Shown here one piece after another: positions 1 through 56,520 of a DNA stretch of 64,000 nucleotides. A program made the translations under genes and the position numbers. Numbering within the stretch: the first letter of the stretch is position 1; every line of letters starts with the position of its first letter. Source of the stretch: Natronomonas aquatica (lineage in GTDB: Archaea > Halobacteriota > Halobacteria > Halobacteriales > Haloarculaceae); the NCBI RefSeq assembly GCF_024449025.1, contig NZ_JAHLKM010000004.1, positions 62,001 to 126,000 of the forward strand, given 5' to 3'. Under the pieces are notes generated by a model. The model was not told the origin of the DNA. It saw only the letters and a list, made by a program, of their open reading frames with translations, and ran no database searches.

Positions 1-342
1 GACGCGGGAAAGCGTCGAATCGAGTTCCCGGAGGTGCGAATGGAGCGCGTCGGCCGGCGGGTCCTCGGCCGTCCCGCCCAACTCGGTGACCTGCCGGCAG
101 TGGTCGCGTTCGCTCTCGGCGGCTTCGCGGAAGGCCGCCGCGACGCGCTCGTTCGGCTCGTCGTCGGCCCACCGGTCGAACGTCTCGGCAGCACGGGCCT
201 CGGCGGCGGCGGCCGCGTCCAGAACGTGATCGCGATCCAGGTGTGCGGCCGTTTCCGCCACGAGCGCCTTCTCCGAACCGAGTCGGTCGAGTTCGGTGTT
301 GTTTGCCTCCCGCACCGCATCGAGGAACGTGTTCGCGTCCAT
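1..342 (-). CDS. Rubrerythrin/ferritin-like helical protein, partial (3' end beyond the window)
   Basis: The start codon is ATG at 342 on the minus strand and the frame stays open to base 1, giving at least 114 residues with the C-terminus missing. The visible part is entirely helical and acidic, with repeated Glu/Ala/His heptad-like segments (for example AAEARAAETFDRW and ESERDHCRQ). It resembles what haloarchaeal genomes annotate as rubrerythrin or ferritin-like. A di-iron site of the ExxH type cannot be confirmed from this fragment. The gene is divergent from the rhodanese-MBL gene at 440. The family call is from memory of similar haloarchaeal proteins; a plain helical hypothetical protein is the alternative. 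Confidence 0.6.
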   Translation of the reverse strand, partial: MDANTFLDAVREANNTELDRLGSEKALVAETAAHLDRDHVLDAAAAAEARAAETFDRWADDEPNERVAAAFREAAESERDHCRQVTELGGTAEDPPADALHSHLRELDSTLSRV

Positions 343-14206: not shown

Positions 14207-15082
14207 TCACCGCTCGCGGACGACGACGAACTCCGCCAGATCCCGGAGGTACTCGACGGCGGTGCTTTCGCCGGGATCGGCCGCCGAAAGCGACGACAGC
14301 GCGGCGTCCGATTCCGAGCGCGCACGGGAGTTGACCTCCTCGGGAGTCATCTCGGTTATCTGGACGAGCGAGGGACGCTCCATCGCCGCGTCCTGGCCGG
14401 TCGGCTTGCCGAGTTTCTCGGCGTCGGCGGTCGCATCGAGGACGTCGTCGCGGATCTGGAAGGCGATCCCGACGCGCTCGGCGTAGCTTCCGAAGGCTTC
14501 GATGGTGTAGGTGTCGGCGTCGGCGGCGATCGCCCCCAGTTCCGCGGCCGCCCGGAACAGCGCCCCCGTCTTCCGGCGGGCGAGTTCGACGTACTCCGAT
14601 TCGGTCGTCGGCTCCGCGACGAGTTCGGTCGCCTCGCCCTCACCGAGTTCGACCATCGCCTCGGCGACGGCCCGCATCGCCCGGTCGTCGCTGCCGAAGA
14701 GCGAAAACGCCTCCCCGAGCAGCCCGTCGCTGGTCGCGATCGCGGGCCCGTGGCCGAACGCCGCCCAGGTGCTCTCGACGCCGCGGCGGAGTTCGGACTC
14801 GTCGATGATGTCGTCGACCACAAGCGACGCGTTGTGGACGAGTTCGATCCCGACGGCGAAATCGACCGCGTTCGCGGAAGCGGCCGACCCGCAGCCGTCC
14901 TCGCCGACCAACTCGCCGCCGGCCGCCTCGAAGGAAAGCAGCGTGACGGTCGGTCGGACGCGCTTGCCGCCCGAAAGCGAGACGTGCTCGAGCCGCTCTG
15001 TCATCGCGTCCGGCTCTGTCGACTCGAGGACGGCCTCCAGCCGCGACTCGACAAGCGCCCGACGGCGCTCGAGATACTCCAT
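14207..15082 (-). CDS. Polyprenyl (geranylgeranyl/farnesyl) diphosphate synthase
   Basis: A 291-residue trans-isoprenyl diphosphate synthase. The first aspartate-rich motif is DDIIDE (near 88) and the second is DDVLD (near 213). The substrate-binding GGKRVRP occurs near 38-44. It condenses IPP with allylic diphosphates to build the C15-C25 chains of archaeal lipids, quinones or carotenoids. Product length cannot be assigned from the residues near the first motif by eye. It is slightly short compared with the usual 330-350 residue haloarchaeal IdsA, so it may be a paralogue. It is divergent from the ligase-like gene at 15205. Confidence 0.88.
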   Translation of the reverse strand: MEYLERRRALVESRLEAVLESTEPDAMTERLEHVSLSGGKRVRPTVTLLSFEAAGGELVGEDGCGSAASANAVDFAVGIELVHNASLVVDDIIDESELRRGVESTWAAFGHGPAIATSDGLLGEAFSLFGSDDRAMRAVAEAMVELGEGEATELVAEPTTESEYVELARRKTGALFRAAAELGAIAADADTYTIEAFGSYAERVGIAFQIRDDVLDATADAEKLGKPTGQDAAMERPSLVQITEMTPEEVNSRARSESDAALSSLSAADPGESTAVEYLRDLAEFVVVRER

Positions 15083-52747: not shown

Positions 52748-53677
52748 TCAGTCGTCCGCCGGCTCGGGCCGCGTCGTCACGTCCACGGAGGGCGCGTCGA
52801 CACCGAGTTCCTCGATCGCCGCTTGGGCCGCCCGCTTGCCCGAAAGCAGCATCGCACCGAAGGTCGGCCCCATCCGCGGGAGGCCGTAGGTCGTCGCCGT
52901 CGCCATGCCGGCCGCGATGAGGCCGTCGTGGACGACGCCGGTGTGCTCGACGACGGCGTCCTCGCTCTCGCCGACCCACATCGAGTCGTGGCCGGGCGAG
53001 TCGTGGCCGGGGGCGCCGTACTGTCCCTCGTCGGTCTGATCCATCCCGGTGTTGTGCTCGTCGGCGTGTTCGATCCCGGGCGCGGAGAGGACGCCCCGTT
53101 CCTGGAGTTTCGAGACGGCGACCGCGTCGTGGCCCGTCGCGTCGATGACCAGATCGGACTCGACGGCGATCGGATCGACGCAGGTGATCTCCCGCGGCAG
53201 GGCGTGTACCGGCGTCCAGTTCATTACGATCCCGCCGACGCGGTGGTCCTCGCGGATGACGATGTCCGTGAACTCGGTCATGTTCTGCATCTTCGCGCCG
53301 GCGTCACAGGCTGCCTTGATGAGCCCCGAGCAGGCCTCGGGACCGTTGGCGACGTAGAGATCCTCGGTCTCGTCGGATTCGGTGTAGTCGACGTCGAGTT
53401 CGTCGAGGACGCTCTCGGCGGGGTCCCGGACGGTCACCTTGTTCATGAGGAAGCCGCCGAGCCAAAAGCCCCCGCCGAGGTAGTTGTTCTTCTCGACGAC
53501 CATCGTCTTGACGCCGCGTTCGGAGAGCTCCTTCGCGGCCATCAGCCCCGAAGGGCCGCCGCCGACGATGATGACGTCCGATTCCGTGAAGTCCATGAAC
53601 TCCTCGGTCCACTCGGCGCCGATAGCGCGCGTTACTTCCGCTTCGCCGACGTCGCTGAATTCGCTAAACTGGGTCAT
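52748..53677 (-). CDS. thi4: Thiamine thiazole synthase Thi4
   Basis: A 309-residue FAD/NAD-dependent thiazole synthase. The nucleotide loop is [14 protein letters not shown] (near 37-50), with [13 protein letters not shown] (near 68-80) and [15 protein letters not shown] at the C-terminus. It builds the ADP-thiazole precursor of thiamine from NAD and glycine. The position equivalent to the sulfur-donating Cys of yeast Thi4 reads ITCVDP here, not His as in methanococcal enzymes, so a Cys-donor single-turnover mechanism is possible. The acidic N-terminus is haloarchaeal. ATG 53677 follows a TATA box by about 27 bases. Likely repressed by ThiR. Confidence 0.94.
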
Positions 53678-53700
53678 ACAACTGAATAATACCACGGGGA

Positions 53701-53746: not shown

Positions 53747-54229
53747 TTACTGGATCCCGAGTACGAGCGCCTGACAGCCGACGGTGACGGCGCTCCCGAC
53801 GCCGAGAAGCGCCACGTTCGCCCGCGGGTTCGCGGCGGGCGTGACGTCGAACGTGTAATGCCACGCTGAGACGGGGCGAAACGGGCGGATCCCCATCGGC
53901 GTGACGCTGTCGGCGAGCAGATGGGAGGTAAGCGACAGCGCCGCCGCCGTCCCGACCGTCGCTGCGATGGCGACCGGACGGCCGACGGCGGCCCCGAGTG
54001 CCCATCCGACACCGGCCGATAGGAGCGCCGCGCCTGCGATGAACCAGACCGTGTGGGTCGGCCCCCGGTGATCGATCGGGAGGTACTCGTCGGCGTCGGG
54101 AACGGTCGCGAGCGCAACCGCGACGGTGGCCCCCAAAAGCGCCAGTTCCGGGGCTCCTGTCCGGGTCAACACCGCCCCAACGGGCGCATAACAGAACAGC
54201 GCCGCACCCACGTGTCCCCAGCGATACAT
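53747..54229 (-). CDS. Metal-dependent membrane hydrolase-like protein (YdjM/DUF457 family)
   Basis: A 160-residue membrane protein with about four helices: MYRWGHVGAALFCYAPVGAVL and LALLGATVAVALATVPDADEYL, then HRGPTHTVWF and LTSHLLADSVTPMGIRPF. The conserved DADE, HRGxTH and HLLAD motifs are those of the YdjM family (predicted membrane-bound metal-dependent hydrolases). The physiological substrate is unknown. ATG at 54229 begins the first helix; longer upstream frames are shadows. Confidence 0.82.
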   Translation of the reverse strand: MYRWGHVGAALFCYAPVGAVLTRTGAPELALLGATVAVALATVPDADEYLPIDHRGPTHTVWFIAGAALLSAGVGWALGAAVGRPVAIAATVGTAAALSLTSHLLADSVTPMGIRPFRPVSAWHYTFDVTPAANPRANVALLGVGSAVTVGCQALVLGIQ

Positions 54230-54310
54230 ACCCCTCGTTTCGTCTCGAAGCCTATCAAATCCTCCATCCGCTCCGTAAGGGTTAGGATCGGACGCACCGA
54301 AGGCCGCCGT

Positions 54311-54607
54311 ATGACCGACGACGAGGAGAAAAAAGAGGGACCGGCCGTCCCGCTCGGCGACGGGGCTCCCGTCGCTGGCGCCCCGCCCGCACGGGTGGCC
54401 TCGCGGCTCCACTATGCGATCGAGAAAAGCGAGGTCATCGACCGCGAGGGCGGGACGACGATCCGGACGCCCGAGGGTCCCCGTGAACTCGCCGACGTGC
54501 TCGAGGAGAGCGACGAGGTGTACTTCGACACGAGACAGGCCTTCGAGGCCGCTATCCGTGACGTCGTCGGGACCGGTCCCGTCCCGACCGCCGAGGACGA
54601 GGAGTAG
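54311..54607 (+). CDS. Small DUF5789-like protein
   Basis: A 98-residue acidic soluble protein: a flexible start (MTDDEEKKEGPAVPLGDG), ARVASRLHYAIEKSEVIDREG, TIRTPEGPRELADVLEE and YFDTRQAFEAAIRDVVG. It matches a haloarchaeal small-protein family I recall as DUF5789, of unknown function. Divergent from the membrane hydrolase-like gene and followed by the radical SAM gene. Confidence 0.72.
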   Translation: MTDDEEKKEGPAVPLGDGAPVAGAPPARVASRLHYAIEKSEVIDREGGTTIRTPEGPRELADVLEESDEVYFDTRQAFEAAIRDVVGTGPVPTAEDEE

Positions 54608-54744
54608 CCCCGGTTCGTGTCCTTCCGACGCCGGTCTCCGGGTGGGCCCGTCGGGAGCACCAGCGAGGCCGTCGCGTGCTCCCCGGGAGCCGCCGGGCCG
54701 GAACGTGCGACTTTTCAGCCTCGACGGCCAAACAGACACAACGA

Positions 54745-55737
54745 ATGATCTCGAAGGGCTGTGAACAGTGTGCCGTCGGCGGCAAGATGGTGCTTTTCGT
54801 CTACGGCTACTGCGATCAGCGCGACTGTTTTTACTGCCCGCTCGGCGAGAACAGAAAGAACGTCACGCAGGTATACGCCAACGAACGCCCCGTCGAGGAC
54901 GACGGGGACATCATCGAGGAGGCCAGACGGATGGACGCGCTGGGCTCCTCGATCACCGGCGGGGAACCCCAGGAAGTTCTCGAGCGGACCTGTCGGTACA
55001 TCAGCCTCCTGAAAGAGGAGTTCGGGGCCGACCACCACACCCACCTCTATACGGGGATCACCGGGGGCAGAGAGAACATGCGTCGGCTGGCCGAGGCGGG
55101 CCTCGACGAGATCCGCTTTCACCCCCCGCTGGAGCTGTGGGGTGACCTCCACGGTACCGAATGGGAGGAGATTCTCCACGTCGCCCGCGAGGAAGGCATC
55201 ACGCCCGCCTTCGAGATCCCCGGGATCCGCGCGGAACCGGAGTTTCTGCAGTTCCTCGATGAGGGGGCCGCCGACTTCTGCAACATCAACGAGTTCGAGA
55301 TGTCCGACGGCAACTACCGCCGGATGCAGGAGGAGGGCTTCGAACTGAAGGAGGACCACATGTCGGCCGTCGAGGGCTCACACGACATCCTAGAGCGGAT
55401 GGGCGATCACGAGAAGGTCTACTTCTGTACCAGCGTCTTCAAGGACGCCGCCCAGCACCGCTCGCGGCTCAAGCGGATGGCCAGAAACGTCCGCCGGGAG
55501 TTCGACGAGATCACCGACGACGGCACGATCGTCTACGGCAAGACCTGGGAGACCGAAGCGCGACTGGAGGAACTCGGCGTCCCGGAGGAGTTCTACACGG
55601 TCAAACCGGATCACGTCGAGTTGGCGTGGTGGCTCCTCGAGGAAATGATCGAGGACGGCGACCTCGATGAGGGCGAGATCGTCGAGCAGTACCCCACTTA
55701 CGACGGAACGGTCGTCGAACGGACGCCGCTGGCGTAG
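54745..55737 (+). CDS. Radical SAM protein with CX4CX2C cluster motif
   Basis: A 330-residue radical SAM enzyme. Near the N-terminus CEQCAVGGK is followed by the cluster loop GYCDQRDCFYCPLGENRK (about 20-37), where the three Cys are spaced CX4CX2C, not the usual CX3CX2C. SSITGGEP (near 70) is the SAM-binding GGE motif, and a TIM-barrel pattern follows (EIRFHPP, TPAFEIPGIR, FCNINEF). There is no second-cluster domain or RRE. The substrate is unknown and no partner gene is nearby. The ATG at 54745 starts just before the first Cys pair; the upstream frame is not conserved-looking. Confidence 0.85.
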   Translation: MISKGCEQCAVGGKMVLFVYGYCDQRDCFYCPLGENRKNVTQVYANERPVEDDGDIIEEARRMDALGSSITGGEPQEVLERTCRYISLLKEEFGADHHTHLYTGITGGRENMRRLAEAGLDEIRFHPPLELWGDLHGTEWEEILHVAREEGITPAFEIPGIRAEPEFLQFLDEGAADFCNINEFEMSDGNYRRMQEEGFELKEDHMSAVEGSHDILERMGDHEKVYFCTSVFKDAAQHRSRLKRMARNVRREFDEITDDGTIVYGKTWETEARLEELGVPEEFYTVKPDHVELAWWLLEEMIEDGDLDEGEIVEQYPTYDGTVVERTPLA

Positions 55738-56034: not shown

Positions 56035-56520
56035 ATGCCCGACTGCCCACTCGCGGACGATTGCCCCAGTTTTTCCGAACGCATCGAAGGGATGGGCTGT
56101 CAACACTACGGCGACCGCGGCGGTGCCGAGTGGTGTTCCCACTACAATCAGCCGATCAACGATCTCAAGCGACAGCCGGTCAAGATCGGCGAGGAGGTCG
56201 TCGTCGACGTCGAGGACATCCACGAATCGGGGGCGGGCGTCGGCCGCACCGAGGACGGGTTCATCGTGATGGTCGACGGGGTGTTGCCCGAGGCCCGCGC
56301 GCGCGTCGAGATCACCGAGGTCAGGTCGAACCACGCCCGGGCCGACGAGATCGAGCGGCTGCCGATGGAGGACGACGAGGGCGAGGAGGCGGACGAGACG
56401 GCCGAGGCAGACGAGGGCGAGGAGGCGGACGGGACAGCCGAAACGGACGAGCGAAACGACCGCGAGCGGGCACTCGATCGCGAACGGCTGGGGAGCCGCG
56501 AGAACTTCTGGGGCAACTGA
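56035..56520 (+). CDS. TRAM-domain protein with N-terminal cysteine cluster
   Basis: A 161-residue protein. The N-terminus has CPLADDCPSF and GMGCQHYGDRGGAEWCSHY, four Cys that could bind zinc or iron-sulfur. Residues about 48-110 are a TRAM RNA-binding beta barrel (VKIGEEVVVDVEDIHESGAGVGR, GFIVMVDGVLPEARARVEI). The C-terminal 50 residues are a highly acidic repeat (DEGEEADETAEADEGEE). TRAM proteins of archaea act as RNA chaperones or regulators. TATA TTTAAT (56006-56011) lies about 26 bases before the ATG. Confidence 0.85.
   Translation: MPDCPLADDCPSFSERIEGMGCQHYGDRGGAEWCSHYNQPINDLKRQPVKIGEEVVVDVEDIHESGAGVGRTEDGFIVMVDGVLPEARARVEITEVRSNHARADEIERLPMEDDEGEEADETAEADEGEEADGTAETDERNDRERALDRERLGSRENFWGN

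Follow-up and report, generated by a model that had tools for sequence, protein, structure and literature searches.

A clade-wide one-residue insertion in the cluster motif of a nearly universal, uncharacterised radical SAM family of the Halobacteriota

The CX4CX2C motif of a radical SAM protein encoded in the haloarchaeon Natronomonas aquatica is almost certainly the product of a single-residue insertion, which occurred once on the haloarchaeal stem of a family that otherwise carries CX3CX2C. Because the three cysteines are retained, the cluster is presumably bound as usual, with no new chemistry. The family is nearly universal in the Halobacteriota and uncharacterised; it is probably a two-cluster family and possibly acts on prenyl phosphates. 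The gene lies in a stretch of 64,000 nucleotides that was analysed at its full length and is called the window here, and the features discussed below are collected in Table 1.

Table 1. Features of the window, with positions counted from its first nucleotide.
Feature	Position	Strand	Basis
DUF5789 protein, upstream of the radical SAM gene	54053..54607	+	PF19102
Radical SAM protein P0001, 330 aa	54745..55737	+	ORF, PF04055 32.7 bits, AlphaFold2 model
CEQC, C6-X2-C9, candidate auxiliary cluster ligands	54760..54771	+	invariant in 151/151
Radical SAM motif CDQRDCFYC, C23-X4-C28-X2-C31, haloarchaeal one-residue insertion	54811..54837	+	translation, alignment, tree
GGEP motif, after strand 2	54958..54969	+	near-invariant in 151 sequences
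C228, sixth invariant cysteine	55426..55428	+	end of strand 225-228, model and alignment
TRAM-domain protein, downstream of the radical SAM gene	56035..56520	+	PF01938 43.7 bits
Polyprenyl diphosphate synthase, same cluster as the haloarchaeal neighbour copies	14207..15082	-	86% to L151 copy

The gene runs from an ATG to a stop codon, and its product begins with MISKGCEQCAVGGKMVLFVYGYCDQRDCFYCPLG. The same frame is already open from a GTG at 54676, and the alignment of the homologues begins at the ATG. PF04055 is the sole Pfam family that the window protein matches above the cut-off (29.5 bits), and no NCBIfam model is reached at its own cut-off. Consistent with the initial annotation, which had described a family with unknown substrate, no curated function is attached to the protein. 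PF04055 was found in all 44 family members searched; at E <=0.01 the only other Pfam family in these members was PF13353, and none of them contained a cobalamin-binding domain. The family of the window protein is, we assume, COG2108. Its GGEP sequence, which we take to be a motif with a role in SAM binding, is nearly invariant (G72 and G73 in 151, E74 in 148 and P75 in 150 of the 151 sequences). A three-cysteine motif, TGGEP and, in the model, a partial barrel of alternating strands and helices are the traits of superfamily membership that are present. This membership stands despite the non-canonical spacing, because exceptions to CX3CX2C have already been published. In the relevant passage of a 2011 paper, CX3CX2C or CX4CX2C is given as characteristic of the radical SAM superfamily (PMC3087415), and CX4CX2C has been reported for GenD1 and, according to the wording of the passage in question, for GenK and Sis14 (PMC4340712).

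That the window protein contains CX4CX2C had been stated in the initial annotation, and the translation bears this out. The further claim that the spacing marks a distinct family does not hold, as homologues of 35-50% identity carry CX3CX2C at the same columns. An alignment of 26 diverse members, made first, contained a gap column within the motif outside the haloarchaea. Among 151 distinct homologues, CX4CX2C is present in 62 of the 62 haloarchaeal sequences and CX3CX2C in 89 of the 89 others; the family alignment that had been proposed as a check on the spacing has therefore given invariance within the haloarchaea and the canonical motif everywhere else. CX3CX2C homologues, which would make the insertion an isolated one, had been named as the result that would refute a distinct family. 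Such homologues were found, except that the insertion is clade-wide and not isolated. The haloarchaeal motif itself hardly varies, with CDQRDCFYC in 59 of the 62 sequences and CDHRDCFYC, CERRDCFYC and CPNRGCFYC in one each. In a maximum-likelihood tree of 122 of the 151 sequences, the spacing changes once, on a branch with a support of 100. This tree was built with a quick method and with the motif columns included, and its haloarchaeal branch has a length of 0.75 and is fully supported. In our reading, a minor and purely local alteration took place on a long haloarchaeal stem.

The alternative, that CX4CX2C is the signature of a family apart whose chemistry differs, is highly improbable. The fixation of the spacing in every haloarchaeal sequence would suit such a family; however, 31 residues including six cysteines are common to all 89 CX3CX2C homologues, the gene neighbourhood is partly common (a polyprenyl synthase lies near both CX3 and CX4 genes), and the tree contains only one spacing change. 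The spacing of the cluster motif by itself does not delimit radical SAM families, and the case may serve as a warning. GenD1 (with GenK and Sis14) shares the Cx4Cx2C spacing of the cluster cysteines with the window protein; unlike the window protein, the members of this group are cobalamin-dependent antibiotic methyltransferases. GenD1 and the window family would appear to have acquired their shared spacing independently. A structure prediction of the cluster loop, the second check that had been proposed, identified the loop as the least certain part of the CX4 model (pLDDT of 69 and 75 for its two blocks vs 88 and 91 in a Methanoperedens CX3 homologue), although this low confidence may also be due to the small number of haloarchaeal rows in the alignment used by the model.

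With the window protein as the query, the gene was found in 33 of 40 genomes of close kin and in 170 of 196 Halobacteriota genomes that were at least 90% complete, mostly with a single match per genome. Thirty-nine of the 170 gene-bearing genomes are haloarchaea, i.e., members of the window's order. Identity to the window protein is 81-92% in most of the haloarchaea listed, 68-72% in some deeper lineages (G032, G034 and G085) and 35-50% outside the haloarchaea. To judge from the sequences, the gene is conserved far beyond chance. A profile scan of one genome per bacterial or archaeal species confirmed at least 560 relatives, and the best 80 of the 560 all bear archaeal titles: Methanosarcinales, Methanomicrobiales, Methanoperedens, Methanothrix, Mnemosynella, haloarchaea and unnamed Euryarchaeota. 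The family had been proposed to be archaeal, and this fits every relative seen, both in the Halobacteriota genomes and among the best 80 of the 560 in the wider scan. A scan of viral contigs confirmed no relatives. A radical SAM protein with this distribution, and mostly more than 80% identical among the haloarchaea, is yet without a curated function.

Some haloarchaea depart from this pattern. In one member of the window's family (G055, locus L054), the copy is only 56% identical and sits on a long branch (0.67); its motif is the variant CPNRGCFYC, and the polyprenyl synthase of the neighbour cluster is absent from its fetched 13 kb. Two genomes of the window's order, G033 (98% complete) and G031 (92%), gave no match to the gene.

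The initial annotation had pointed to a CEQC pair ahead of the cluster motif, which is indeed present as C6-X2-C9, and had suggested that it might supply an extra ligand. This now appears likely, the pair being invariant in 151 of 151 sequences together with C228, an invariant cysteine that the annotation did not mention. The 31 residues that are invariant in all 151 sequences include exactly six cysteines (C6, C9, C23, C28, C31 and C228), and C83 (50/62) and C179 (59/62) are frequent in the haloarchaea only. Further invariants include T71, G72, G73, H100, Y102, E122, R124, H126, E157, P159, N182, E185, K233, Q237, R241, R244 and T261; as a group, these residues are polar and in part basic, and the helix after C228 carries K233, D234, Q237, R241 and R244. 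In the model, most of the listed non-cysteine invariants map to the latter half of strands 67-71, 98-103, 122-125, 153-159, 178-182 and 225-228 or directly behind these strands, a location that would correspond to the active-site side of such barrels.

A comparison with NifB suggests what the additional cysteines might do. Residues 1..242 of the model align with residues 13..275 of the Methanothermobacter NifB (7bi7), and a gapless count from the ends of this range places C6 at approximately NifB residue 18 and C228 at approximately 261, both by extrapolation. In NifB, C18, C260 and C263 are K-cluster ligands, as stated in the pertinent part of a review (PMC9692996). Because C6 and C228 fall at about these sites, a second iron-sulphur cluster is likely, and the correspondence, taken as it is from extrapolated range ends, is the best reason for placing a cluster of C6, C9 and C228 over the mouth of the barrel. 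On balance, we consider it probable that these three cysteines would hold a second cluster there with one iron open. The likeness to NifB is incomplete: the window protein has three candidate K-type ligands vs five in NifB, the match stops at approximately residue 242, with approximately 90 extra C-terminal residues in the window protein, and none of the genes that recur beside the radical SAM gene belongs to the nitrogenase system.

That just three extra cysteines are conserved beyond the radical SAM motif counts against a second cluster. Three cysteines instead of four would also be compatible with a different role, in which C6, C9 and C228 are not Fe-S ligands and serve either as functional thiols (one to donate hydrogen, with a dithiol for its reduction) or as a zinc site. 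Radical SAM epimerases and repair enzymes employ such a cysteine, and in the model C228 stands at the end of its strand, on what would be the radical side by topology. We regard this role as rather unlikely, as a CX2C pair and a C-terminal cysteine, invariant throughout the family at about the sites of the NifB K ligands, suit a cluster better.

The AlphaFold2 models of the window protein (mean pLDDT 90.8, pTM 0.86) and of the Methanoperedens CX3 homologue (pLDDT 94.6, pTM 0.88) have the same fold. Among the matches listed in the VIA comparison, viperins were the best for both models (Z 17.4 and 17.1, rmsd 3.1-3.3, approximately 210 aligned residues); the alignment of the window model on viperin (Z 17.4, rmsd 3.1, 210 aligned) covers the range 13..324. 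NifB came second with a Z of 15.0 for both models (for the window model, 7jmb 15.0 and 7bi7 14.3), and pyruvate formate-lyase activase (14.2 for the window model, 15.0 for the homologue) and tetraether synthase (14.0 and 14.8) were also matched. Foldseek ordered the relatives differently, with HydE first for both models and lipoyl synthase, biotin synthase, BlsE and the viperins close after, and its TM-scores were below 0.5 for the models. At identities of 10-18%, these matches between predicted and known structures indicate a common fold and not membership. A search of the PDB by sequence returned no convincing relative, the best match of the profile being MoaA (E 0.0064).

The fold resembles viperin over most of the window protein, and the alignment reaches the C-terminal part. 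A viperin-like enzyme would hold a nucleotide or another triphosphate in the same cavity and abstract a hydrogen from its sugar, and the prenyl-synthase neighbours described below would be old housekeeping company. In support of such an enzyme, viperins fill the top ten VIA rows with either model, and most of these alignments extend into the C-terminal part; 15 of the 44 members weakly match the viperin NCBIfam model (best E 9.6e-5); and basic invariant residues follow strand 7. We nevertheless consider it unlikely. The viperin chains and the models share 10-13% identity, and we know of no viperin with the six-cysteine pattern, i.e., a CX2C before the barrel together with C228. Viperin is outnumbered among the NCBIfam matches of the 44 members by HxsC (38), archaeal MoaA (35), PFL activase (35) and Tes (24), and because of this the sequence signal is best described as superfamily-wide; the window protein itself gave no match to the viperin model NF038283 at E <=1. 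Moreover, a near-universal, mostly single-match gene does not resemble a defence gene.

Tetraether synthase (Tes, GDGT-MAS) offers a comparison of another kind, as it is likewise an archaeal radical SAM protein, a lipid enzyme with an N-terminal auxiliary cluster. The Tes model was matched by members with a best E of 2.2e-7, whereas this model (NF045702) was absent from the matches of the window protein. Tes has approximately 500 residues and includes a rubredoxin domain as well as two domains for auxiliary clusters; the window protein has 330 residues and six conserved cysteines. To our knowledge, haloarchaea are not makers of tetraethers. The N-terminal auxiliary cluster of tetraether synthase is bound by C73, C77, C80 and a histidine, as described in the section concerned (PMC9433317).

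A survey of the genome context, the third check that had been proposed, yielded recurrent partners, namely DUF2551, UppS and a polyprenyl diphosphate synthase, but UppS was next to the gene in none of the 30 haloarchaeal loci. For this survey, the neighbouring ORFs of 121 loci (30 haloarchaeal and 91 non-haloarchaeal, some loci being short) were grouped into clusters with no families specified beforehand. DUF2551, among the commonest partners, lies downstream on the same strand in 57 of the 91 non-haloarchaeal loci, and UppS follows the gene in the same orientation, at a distance of up to 3 kb, in 47 of the 91. When genomes were sampled evenly, a same-strand UppS was located no more than 1.5 kb downstream in 69 of 88 non-haloarchaeal genomes from 11 of 15 families, the 88 being those of the 131 non-haloarchaeal gene-bearing genomes in which both places were among the matches listed; it is not adjacent in the other 19, including 12 of 12 genomes of four families. 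The polyprenyl diphosphate synthase is nearby, always on the same strand, in 14 of the 30 haloarchaeal and 15 of the 91 other loci. All 15 of the latter belong to the Methanoperedens clade of the tree, and there the synthase gene lies upstream, with 38-83 bp between its end and the point where the match to the radical SAM gene begins. In the haloarchaea, it ends 1.2-3.2 kb upstream in 13 loci and lies 3.3 kb downstream in one (L151). Because an opposite-strand DUF373 gene stands between the two in 10 of the 13 upstream cases, these loci are not simple operons. In the genome of the window, the synthase of this cluster is 40 kb from the radical SAM gene, and the best UppS match falls on a different contig.

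From this neighbourhood of prenyl synthases, our leading, if tentative, candidate for the substrate is a lipid-carrier intermediate, a phosphorylated polyprenyl that the trans- and cis-prenyl synthases encoded nearby would supply. The window protein would have the putative activity of cleaving SAM at its first cluster; the resulting 5'-deoxyadenosyl radical would take a hydrogen from the substrate, which might be held by the invariant H100, Y102, R124, H126, E157, N182 and E185 and by the basic C-terminal helix (K233, R241, R244). A point against this candidate is that the conserved residues of the modelled cavity are polar, which would accommodate a phosphate or a sugar better than an isoprenoid chain alone. 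The chain of a stem insertion, a second cluster and a polyprenyl substrate is, as a whole, quite possible, with the substrate step as its weakest link, and its strongest form, in which a polyprenyl-phosphate lipid carrier is modified by an ancient archaeal enzyme that binds its substrate at a second Fe-S cluster, is improbable. A lipid-carrier step, should one be found, would close a gap in the biosynthesis of archaeal dolichol. We know of no earlier radical SAM step in the polyprenyl-carrier pathways, and this one would be the first. In the literature searched, no paper joins COG2108 with radical SAM; COG2108 by itself occurs in one unrelated paper, and DUF2551 in two papers. Of the papers listed that combine radical SAM with isoprenoids, undecaprenyl or dolichol, none concerned the family of the window protein by title or the opening of the abstract. 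The passages of PMC8305020 in question mention radical SAM for AhbD alone. The ties to UppS and to the polyprenyl synthase in separate lineages offer a concrete place to look for the function.

The distribution of the gene was also set against that of the pathway. Of the 196 Halobacteriota genomes, 26 are without the gene; UppS is kept in 24 of these 26 and STT3/AglB also in 24, which speaks against the lipid-carrier substrate. A strict need of the gene for the making of polyprenol or for N-glycosylation was rejected on these counts, and the step would therefore be dispensable or replaceable. The gene, UppS and STT3 are all absent from G046 and G054, and five further genomes without STT3 have the gene.

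Neighbours other than prenyl synthases also recur, which counts against a lipid-carrier substrate. The class I LysRS gene is present in 11 loci and, in six of them (6/91 non-haloarchaeal loci), immediately precedes the radical SAM gene in the same orientation, aRF1 is near the gene in 10 of the 121 loci, and the TRAM-domain protein falls within the fetched stretch of nine of the 30 haloarchaeal loci, in five of them no more than 2.5 kb downstream. These genes, together with the basic helix and the very strong conservation, would be in keeping with an enzyme that modifies a tRNA, an rRNA or a translation factor. Such a function is distinctly unlikely in our estimation, the three neighbours being patchier than UppS, DUF2551 and the polyprenyl synthase.

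Other features of the flanking DNA were noted. A short cysteine-rich stretch (CPLADDC...C...C), which may form a metal-binding knuckle, precedes the TRAM-domain protein of the window. On the upstream side of the radical SAM gene, no conserved link was seen for the DUF5789 gene, and a homologue of the Thi4-type thiazole synthase is encoded on the minus strand at 52748-53695 (PF01946, E 4.6e-61).

Some homologues of the gene are interrupted by an in-frame TAG. In Methanimicrococcus and its kin (L126, L129, L135, L139 and L142) and in Methanofrustulum (L149), one TAG occurs at the same alignment column in six of six homologues, and the frame is conserved on either side of it. The six loci contain 63 open frames with a length of 120 aa or more, and of these the six gene halves before this codon, and no others, end in TAG. 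M. blatticola encodes PylS above the cut-off. Because the column of the TAG is conserved, TAG is otherwise unused as a stop in those 63 frames and PylS is present in M. blatticola, the homologue in the Methanimicrococcus-type loci probably contains pyrrolysine; no paper on pyrrolysine in this radical SAM family was among the matches listed in the literature searched. Another homologue, in the Methanomicrobia archaeon JdFR-19 (L130), has an in-frame TAG at a different codon, at approximately residue 50 of the match. The JdFR-19 genome also encodes PylS above the cut-off, which suggests pyrrolysine at the in-frame TAG of this homologue as well, although one other frame of the locus does end in TAG.
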